Shown here piece after piece: positions 22,646 through 38,009 of a stretch of DNA of 64,000 nt (its first letter is position 1; every line of letters begins with the position of its first letter). Origin of the DNA: Deltaproteobacteria bacterium (GTDB taxonomy: Bacteria > Desulfobacterota > B13-G15 > RBG-16-54-18); assembly GCA_016927065.1 (NCBI GenBank), contig JAFGNJ010000005.1:1-64000 (forward strand). Reading direction: 5' to 3'. Position numbers and translations under genes: made by a program. Under the pieces are notes generated by a model. The model worked only from the letters and a program-made list of their open reading frames with translations. It had not been told where the DNA came from and searched no databases.

Positions 22646-23409
22646 TGTCCCTGCTCTCCATCGACACCATAAGCAAGAGCTATGACGGCGTTCGCGCCCT
22701 CAATGGGGTTTCTCTGCGCGTTCGGGAAGGGACCATCAAAGGGCTCATCGGCCCTAACGGGGCGGGCAAGACCACCCTCTTTCACCTGATCACGGGGGTC
22801 GAACGGCCCTCAGCGGGGACCATCTCCTTTCAAGGAAGAGATATCACCACCCTGGAACCCCACGAGATCGCCCTCTTGGGGGTGGGCAGGACCTTTCAGA
22901 CCCTCCAGGTCATGGGAACGATGACCGTGGTGGAGAATATCCTAACCGGCATGCATAGCCGTCTAAAGGGCGGCTTTCTCTCCTGTGGATTATGGCTCCC
23001 CTGGATACACAAAGGGGAACGGACCGCCCTGAAGGAGGCCAAGGAGACCTTGGAATTCCTCGACCTGTTGGGGAGGTGGAAGTGGAACGCTTCCCACCTC
23101 TCATTCGCCCAACAGAAGATGCTTGAGCTGGGCAGGGCCCTGGCCATGAAACCCACTCTGTTGTTGTTGGACGAACCAGCCGCTGGCCTCACCCCCGCCG
23201 AGGTAACCAGGCTGGCGGAAAAGATACGCCGGCTCAGGGAACAGGGGATGACGATCCTCATTGTGGAGCATCACATGGGGATGATCATGGATATAACGGA
23301 TGAGGTGGCGGTACTCCACAACGGGGAGATCATCACCGAAGGCCCCCCCGATGCGGTGAGAAACGATCCCCGCGTCATTGAGGCATACCTAAGGGGGAAA
23401 GATGCTTAG
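22645..23409 (+). CDS. livG: branched-chain-type ABC transporter ATPase (LivG family)
   Basis: A 254-residue ATPase. Walker A is GPNGAGKTT, Walker B is LLLLDEPAAGL and the H-loop is in IVEHHMGMIM. The signature motif is LSFAQQ, where the usual form is LSYGQQ or LSGGQ: the second Gly position holds Ala. This may slow the cycle but is compatible with function in this subfamily. The start overlaps the livM stop; the stop overlaps livF by eight bases. Confidence 0.92.
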   Translation: MSLLSIDTISKSYDGVRALNGVSLRVREGTIKGLIGPNGAGKTTLFHLITGVERPSAGTISFQGRDITTLEPHEIALLGVGRTFQTLQVMGTMTVVENILTGMHSRLKGGFLSCGLWLPWIHKGERTALKEAKETLEFLDLLGRWKWNASHLSFAQQKMLELGRALAMKPTLLLLDEPAAGLTPAEVTRLAEKIRRLREQGMTILIVEHHMGMIMDITDEVAVLHNGEIITEGPPDAVRNDPRVIEAYLRGKDA

Positions 23410-36660: not shown

Positions 36661-37185
36661 ATGGACGGAACATATAAAGACATGATTGCCTTTCACGGCC
36701 ATAGCTGTCCTGGGCTGGCGATCGGATATCGAATGACCAAGGCAGCGCTCGATTTTTTGTCGGGCTTACGATCGAAGGATGAGGAGCTGGTAGCGATTGT
36801 GGAAAACAACGCCTGCGGGGTGGATGCCTTGCAGTATATCTCCGGCTGCACATTCGGCAAGGGTAACCTCATTTTCAAGGATTACGGGAAGCAAGTCTAT
36901 ACGCTGTATGATCGCAAGACCAAACGTGGTGTACGCGTTTGCTTCATGAACCGCGCTGTCCCCCAAGGACTGAGAAATGATAGGAAGAAGTTCATCGACT
37001 GGCTCCTGTCTGTACCGGACGAGGAGATCATATCCCTGAAAGAAGTGCGAATCGATGAGCCTGAACCCGCTCGTATCATGAAATCCGCGGAATGCGCCTT
37101 CTGCGGGGAGAGGGTGATGGAAACACGGGTGAGAGAGATCAATGGTAAGCCGGTATGCATCCCCTGTGCGGAGAAGATGCAGTAG
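36661..37185 (+). CDS. FmdE-family metal-binding protein
   Basis: A 174-residue protein of the formylmethanofuran dehydrogenase subunit E family. The signature is FHGHSCPGLAIGYRM near the N-terminus, with ENNACGVDALQYISGCTFGK further on. The C-terminal zinc ribbon has C-A-F-C (ECAFCGER) and C-I-P-C (VCIPCAEK). FmdE proteins occur widely in bacteria outside methanogenesis, often near metal or molybdenum genes; their reaction is unsettled. It directly follows the kinase-like gene (57-base gap). Confidence 0.88.
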   Translation: MDGTYKDMIAFHGHSCPGLAIGYRMTKAALDFLSGLRSKDEELVAIVENNACGVDALQYISGCTFGKGNLIFKDYGKQVYTLYDRKTKRGVRVCFMNRAVPQGLRNDRKKFIDWLLSVPDEEIISLKEVRIDEPEPARIMKSAECAFCGERVMETRVREINGKPVCIPCAEKMQ

Positions 37186-37301: not shown

Positions 37302-37685
37302 ATGGAAATTTTCGGTATCGCAGTATTCGGTGCCACATTATTAGGTGTGGTTATAGGAATCATTATTATTCTTCTTCTTGGTTCTCTCGTTGTACATCTC
37401 GCTGCGAAATTATCAGGAGTCAAAAATGCAACCTTTGGCAAGGCCATAACAATATGTATTGCCTCTATAGTGATTGAAATACTTATTGGTCTCGTATTTT
37501 CATTAGTACCGGTCCTCGGCACGATAGCAGGTTTCTTGATTGGTCTGCTGTTAACCCTCCTTATTATAAAAAACATTTATAACACTGGCTGGGGCAGAGC
37601 CTTCGTAGTGTGGATCATGCAATGGGTCGTACTCATCATCGCCGGCTTGATCCTAGCGGTATTGGGCGGAATATTGGTGCTGTGA
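37302..37685 (+). CDS. hypothetical membrane protein
   Basis: A 127-residue protein with about four hydrophobic segments: GATLLGVVIGIIIILLLGSL, ICIASIVIEILIGLVF, GTIAGFLIGLLLTLLI and VLIIAGLILAVLGGILVL. Between the first two is a short soluble loop (KLSGVKNATFGKA). GGGAGGAAG precedes ATG 37302. No conserved function recognised. Confidence 0.6.
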   Translation: MEIFGIAVFGATLLGVVIGIIIILLLGSLVVHLAAKLSGVKNATFGKAITICIASIVIEILIGLVFSLVPVLGTIAGFLIGLLLTLLIIKNIYNTGWGRAFVVWIMQWVVLIIAGLILAVLGGILVL

Positions 37686-37802
37686 TCATAGTCTTTTACG
37701 ACGAGGTGTCATCCGGTCTTTGCCAAAGGCAAAAAGATGGCCGTAATTTTCAGTTGATTTTTGGCCCCGAACTATTAGAATGGGGATGAGAAGGAGACTG
37801 CT

Positions 37803-38009
37803 ATGGGAACCGCTGAAAATCTGCCAAAAAATGAGAGGATAATCCGGACAATCGTGGGGAGCGTCCTCATCATCGTGGGCTTTTTACTCCCTGGATTCTT
37901 GAAGCCGTTATCCCTCGTCCTCGGCTTGTGCTTTCTCTTTACCGCCTATATCGCCTACTGACCCTGAAAGGGATTCATGCTGAAGGTCTTCGGCAAAGAC
38001 AAAGAGTAG
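37803..38009 (+). CDS. DUF2892-like membrane protein, candidate selenoprotein with two in-frame UGA codons
   Basis: Read to the first TGA, it is a 52-residue protein (37803-37961) of the DUF2892 pattern: NERIIRTIVGSVLIIVGFLL, then LGLCFLFTAYIAY. The family ends with TAxxG-x-Cys-Pro, and here TGA stands exactly where that Cys is expected, followed by CCC (Pro) and a second TGA. The same frame then stays open as KGFMLKVFGKDKE to TAG at 38007, for a total of 68 residues (Sec-Pro-Sec). A SECIS-like hairpin follows. AAGGAG precedes ATG 37803. The alternative is simple termination at 37961, or a decayed 3' end. Confidence 0.6.
37978..37995 (+). promoter_or_regulatory. candidate bacterial SECIS hairpin
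   Basis: TGCTGAA-GGTC-TTCGGCA: seven base pairs (one G-U) capped by a GGUC loop. The loop starts 23 bases after the first TGA and 17 after the second. The Escherichia coli fdhF SECIS also presents GGUC in its apical loop, about 18 bases after UGA. The hairpin lies inside the extended reading frame, as bacterial SECIS elements must. Confidence 0.6.

Follow-up and report, generated by a model that had tools for sequence, protein, structure and literature searches.

A likely selenoprotein of the YgaP-like transmembrane superfamily with two selenocysteine codons one residue apart

Positions 37,803 to 38,009 of the window—the whole 64,000-nucleotide forward-strand stretch of contig JAFGNJ010000005.1 (Deltaproteobacteria bacterium) analyzed here—very likely encode a selenoprotein of the YgaP-like transmembrane (PF11127/DUF2892) superfamily, with a probability of about 0.9 that rests on comparative evidence, protein or 75Se evidence being absent. 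A selenoprotein carrying a Sec-Pro-Sec motif had been put forward as a candidate in an initial annotation made from sequence alone; its coordinates, peptide length, and hairpin description have been confirmed exactly, and the comparative data lend strong support to the selenoprotein reading. The frame opens on the plus strand at ATG 37803 and comprises 52 codons, a TGA (37959), CCC, a second TGA (37965), and 13 further codons before TAG (38007–38009). With TGA translated as selenocysteine (U), a 68-amino acid peptide is obtained (MGTAENLPKNERIIRTIVGSVLIIVGFLLPGFLKPLSLVLGLCFLFTAYIAYUPUKGFMLKVFGKDKE), which matches PF11127 (YgaP-like_TM) with an E-value of 8.9e-10 and 39 bits, exceeding the gathering cut-off of 25.3. 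The features of the locus are listed below.

37754..37781, plus strand: possible sigma-70 promoter, TTGATT-16-TAGAAT; weak, supported by a consensus match only
37790..37796, plus strand: Shine-Dalgarno-like GAAGGAG 5′ of the ATG, recognized by its sequence
37803..38009, plus strand: very likely selenoprotein ORF of 68 amino acids, a small YgaP-like_TM (DUF2892) membrane protein; translated with TGA as U, PF11127 match
37959..37961, plus strand: first UGA, read as Sec53; UGA in 13/13 intact genes, in the column of the invariant Cys of YgaP-TM homologues
37962..37972, plus strand: small hairpin CCCU-GAA-AGGG overlapping the second UGA; one compensatory change, weak evidence
37965..37967, plus strand: second UGA, read as Sec55; UGA in 13/13 intact genes, without a Cys counterpart in ordinary homologues
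37978..37995, plus strand: SECIS-like hairpin TGCTGAA-GGTC-TTCGGCA within the coding sequence; seven pairs (one of them G-U) and a GGUC loop

Most homologous genes have a site of the AGGAGG/GGAGG type ahead of their start codon, and in nearly all of them this start is located 52 codons 5′ of the first UGA. The putative promoter agrees with the consensus at 9 of 12 positions, and about 0.6 such matches are expected by chance in the region.

A genome scan covering 84,980 species returned five homologues, and TGA-CCC-TGA occupies the same position in each of them. Searching 395 genomes of the phylum with a DNA pattern yielded 11 matches as compared with none for a reversed control, and profile searches brought four more members, one of which is probably the same gene as L004. 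Among the 11 pattern matches, one is spurious (L039, G300) and was dropped on account of an in-frame stop two codons upstream and the lack of a family ORF; another is a decayed copy (G392). Thirteen genes with an intact frame, that of the window included, were examined at the level of single codons; they come from several lineages of family rank within the phylum. Both UGAs are retained in all 13, Cys occurs at neither site in any of them, and neither the genome scan nor the profile search of the 395 genomes yielded a Cys version of the motif. In two genes of a single lineage the residue between the selenocysteines is Leu rather than Pro (Sec-Leu-Sec), and the motif is therefore written U-[PL]-U; the Sec-Pro-Sec motif proposed initially thus holds in part, Pro not being essential. 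The motif of the family as a whole reads U-[PL]-U-K-x3-LKVF-[SG]-K. The decayed Sec-Pro-Sec copy (L083:5039-5206, minus strand; G392:C1 around 23238-23363) occupies a syntenic place in a single-contig genome of ~2.1 Mb; its frame is disrupted, its motif is USU, and its hairpin is mismatched, all having degraded together.

Comparison of these genes shows that coding continues through both UGAs to the downstream stop. The upstream parts are diverse, with a mean pairwise amino acid identity of 41% (nine of the 13 genes), and profile A1 matches the UGA genes over their whole length with E-values of 5.8e-19 or better, the decayed G392 copy excepted (4.8e-10); ordinary members of the superfamily are matched at 2e-9 or worse, and the match stops at about the conserved Cys. 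Past the UGAs, synonymous variation is seen at K56 (AAG/AAA), G57 (GGA/GGT/GGG), F58 (TTC/TTT), and K65 (AAA/AAG), and most amino acid replacements in the tail exchange similar residues (F/L, M/L/V). In pairwise comparisons, the non-hairpin codons differ 95, 46, and 210 times at codon positions 1, 2, and 3, respectively. Nucleotide identity amounts to ~0.5 upstream, 0.91 over UPUK, and 0.99 over the hairpin, and falls to 0.25–0.29 past the stop, which itself differs among the genes (TAG, TAA, or TGA). The initial annotation would have been refuted if conservation had ended before the first UGA; instead, conservation is highest past this codon and extends as far as the downstream stop.

The GGUC loop of the SECIS-like hairpin begins 23 nt past the first UGA and 17 nt past the second. 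Bacterial SECIS elements are spaced 16–37 nt from their UGA (PMC10778597), and since both distances fall within this range, one hairpin can in principle serve both codons; the criterion of a G or GU in the apical loop is likewise satisfied by GGUC. Upon folding of the window gene alone, hairpin stability was not clearly above that of shuffled sequence (z −0.9 to −1.4). One sequence could not settle the question, and the case therefore rests on comparison. The hairpin recurs in the 12 other genes, and in its main helix every cell is paired over 9 distinct sequences, the window gene having a G-U pair in place of A-U. The hairpin-forming codons CTG AAG GTC TTC AGC (L60–S64) do not exhibit a single synonymous change in 13 genes and are the only well-conserved codons in this set whose synonymous sites never change; two of the fixed third positions fall in the GGUC loop, at its first G and at its C. 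For other conserved residues, the codon is shared in 20–67% of pairs, and for identical residues in the upstream ORF in just 44%. From these frozen synonymous sites, comparison shows that the hairpin is constrained at the RNA level. The stem varies too little for true covariation to be claimed. The second, smaller CCC-GGG hairpin around the second UGA features one compensatory change (C-G to U-A, in G164); since this stands beside two unpaired cells, the evidence is treated as weak and the element as no more than possible. The SECIS of E. coli fdhF is an in-frame hairpin with a GGUC loop located soon after the UGA, and the main hairpin described here is similar in these respects. In contrast to fdhF, a single hairpin would serve two UGAs in the present case, and the sequence of its stem is nearly invariant across the family.

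The genome from which the window derives possesses a complete selenocysteine machinery, as had been suggested for checking: SelA (625 bits), SelB (373 bits), SelD (386 bits), and a tRNA-Sec with the anticodon TCA (SelC) were all found. SelB is present in all 10 UPU genomes tested; it also occurs in most relatives without the gene, and its co-occurrence is therefore not discriminating. Reassignment of UGA in the genetic code was considered and rejected, UGA being the normal stop in 14 of 52 long ORFs of the window. The SelD gene of the window genome (L090, G000:C14:15630-16556) has an in-frame UGA of its own, followed by a hairpin.

In ordinary YgaP-TM proteins, the second helix ends with a conserved Cys (GFCPLY, GWCPAY), and Sec53 falls into the same column; U53 is thus shown by comparison to take the place of this Cys. 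The position of the second selenocysteine is occupied by L, A, M, or P in ordinary homologues, and by Cys in none of those read. The expectation that homologues would have Cys at the UGA positions was accordingly met at the first UGA and not at the second. Many ordinary members have a distal Cys (..INTC) that the Sec family lacks, from which it may be inferred that the chalcogen pair has moved, two Cys about ten residues apart giving way to Sec-x-Sec. A normal Cys paralogue (L047) is found in the window genome, too. The small stand-alone Cys proteins of PF11127 share with the Sec protein their length, a similar N-terminal start, and two helices. Despite this relatedness several differences exist: the Sec protein features U-x-U where the Cys forms have C-P-L/A-Y, its tail is KGFMLKVFSK as opposed to LLGI(S/N)T(C), and it alone bears a hairpin in the coding sequence. 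The same PF11127 domain occurs in E. coli YgaP, a membrane sulfurtransferase of described topology (PMC4730233) that combines a rhodanese with a two-helix membrane domain and is matched in the E. coli control genome. In contrast to YgaP, the Sec protein lacks the rhodanese domain and possesses a Sec pair; Pfam gave no rhodanese match within the 68-amino acid stand-alone protein, leaving the criterion for a sulfurtransferase of the YgaP kind unmet. An AlphaFold model of low confidence (pLDDT 65) displays two helices and a short helix starting past the motif, and no credible relative could be identified by sequence in the PDB.

A different PF11127 protein, encoded at L072:1351-1539 on the plus strand (= G043:C27:19850-20038), carries one UGA where the conserved Cys would stand, GW-U-GACQALGVSTRRWG (GWUGAC), followed ~12 nt downstream by a GCGTTG...CAACGC hairpin, in a genome that has SelB. 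The class from which this gene comes is represented by one genome; the gene is possibly a second, independent Sec form (UxxC) of the superfamily.

The following mechanism is proposed. UGA53 and UGA55, both inferred to be decoded in the cell, would be read as selenocysteine by means of the one in-frame SECIS hairpin with its GGUC loop, a hairpin that would recruit the SelB-GTP-Sec-tRNA complex, and translation would end at TAG 38007. The predicted product is a 68-amino acid inner-membrane hairpin of two helices, with Sec-Pro-Sec at the end of TM2 and a short basic tail. Both termini and the U-x-U motif may face the cytoplasm, an orientation suggested by the positive residues at both ends. The two selenols would then act at the membrane surface as a pair handling redox equivalents, sulfur/selenium, or soft metals, through an Se-Se or Se-S bond or as metal ligands; this has been inferred and not shown. 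In view of the chemistry and of the relatedness to the membrane domain of YgaP, a role of the selenols in redox reactions or chalcogen transfer is preferred over soft-metal binding or transport, which is still a serious possibility; the preferred role has been inferred and not shown, and we put it slightly below an even chance. A bolder reading, which we hold to be right by a modest margin, is that of an uncatalogued family in which one SECIS hairpin would insert two selenocysteines one residue apart and U-x-U would form a diselenide or bind a chalcogen or soft metal, replacing the Cys chemistry of YgaP-TM proteins. Within this reading, the L072 gene hints at the possibility that selenocysteine entered the PF11127 superfamily at least twice.

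Several other explanations have to be weighed against a doubly decoded selenoprotein. Only one UGA might be decoded efficiently as selenocysteine, the other acting mostly as a stop or being read inefficiently, so that the main product would be shorter or mixed. In support of this assumption, some ribosomes would terminate at each of two UGAs spaced by six nucleotides, and just one strong hairpin is seen; but neither UGA has been replaced in any of 13 genes, the coding signal persists beyond the second, and both distances lie inside the known SECIS range, which renders this explanation very unlikely. Translation might also stop at the first UGA, the conserved piece downstream being an RNA element—a regulator in the 3′ untranslated region—that mimics coding sequence. 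Most SECIS stems need less conservation than is displayed by this 18-nt hairpin, and its near invariance, going beyond that need, speaks for such an element. Yet synonymous variation is seen in the codons for K, G, F, and the last K, and conservation stops at the downstream stop codon with mostly conservative changes (F/L, M/L/V) in the tail, so we consider this view very improbable as well. The view that the stop codons arose by chance, in a pseudogene or through an assembly error, can draw only on the G392 copy, which has truly decayed; it is all but ruled out by the presence of the same two UGAs in 13 genomes and by an upstream ORF under selection.

The remaining alternative accepts the selenoprotein and differs with respect to its function: the motif would be a soft-metal ligand, a selenium version of a CPC metal site, and not a pair for redox chemistry or chalcogen transfer. 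CPC is known as a metal motif in transmembrane segments. In favor of this possibility are the small size and two-helix shape of the membrane protein, with its chalcogen ligands at a membrane edge, and the precedent of a mercuric transport (MerT-type) selenoprotein in a published catalogue (PMC13188914). It is opposed by the occurrence of Leu for Pro in two genes and by the lack of conserved metal genes nearby, and we consider it clearly less likely than not, behind the redox or chalcogen-transfer role.

The neighborhood does not offer a functional clue, since no conserved operon is present. FmdE adjoins the gene only in the window, as had been noted initially, and lies ~4 kb off in G258; around the nine remaining loci that were examined, a few of them truncated by contig ends, FmdE was not matched. 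A functional link to FmdE was therefore rejected, the criterion of a conserved FmdE-linked gene group not being met. In the window, the FmdE domain is fused to a DksA/TraR-type zinc finger (36661-37185, plus strand) 5′ of the selenoprotein gene, and a hydrophobic 127-amino acid ORF (37302-37685, plus strand) with a sub-threshold Yip1-like match (E 0.0034) is located between the two. On the downstream side, a convergent uppP is present in the window as well as in two members of its family; other lineages have other neighbors.

The protein likely represents a selenoprotein family that is new and unusual in its U-x-U arrangement and that appears to be uncatalogued, within the table, the NCBIfam models, and the literature searched. 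Among the 119 prokaryotic selenoprotein families and subfamilies tabulated in 2026 (PMC13188914), there is neither a PF11127 entry nor a motif with two selenocysteines one residue apart, and no model in NCBIfam release 20 covers the Sec-x-Sec family. The initial annotation knew of no described DUF2892 selenoprotein; likewise, none was found in the table, in NCBIfam, or in the literature searched, which left out most subscription journals, and searches of that literature by motif name did not uncover a description of such a protein. The double-Sec selenoproteins of the catalogue (UxxU Prx-like, FmdB-type UxxU, and TsoB with UxxxxU) also combine two selenocysteines in one short motif; in contrast to the family described here, none features Sec-x-Sec with a single intervening residue and none belongs to PF11127.

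Standard annotation would cut the gene to a 52-amino acid fragment and conceal the motif. If the proposed reading is correct, the selenoproteome would gain a membrane protein superfamily with the tightest double-Sec motif of the catalogue checked, and the gene would constitute a compact natural test of one bacterial SECIS serving two UGAs at a distance of six nucleotides. Small membrane proteins of the YgaP-like kind occur widely, and little is understood about them; that two selenols are spent at the site of the conserved Cys suggests that chalcogen chemistry takes place there, which would make the role of the family testable.
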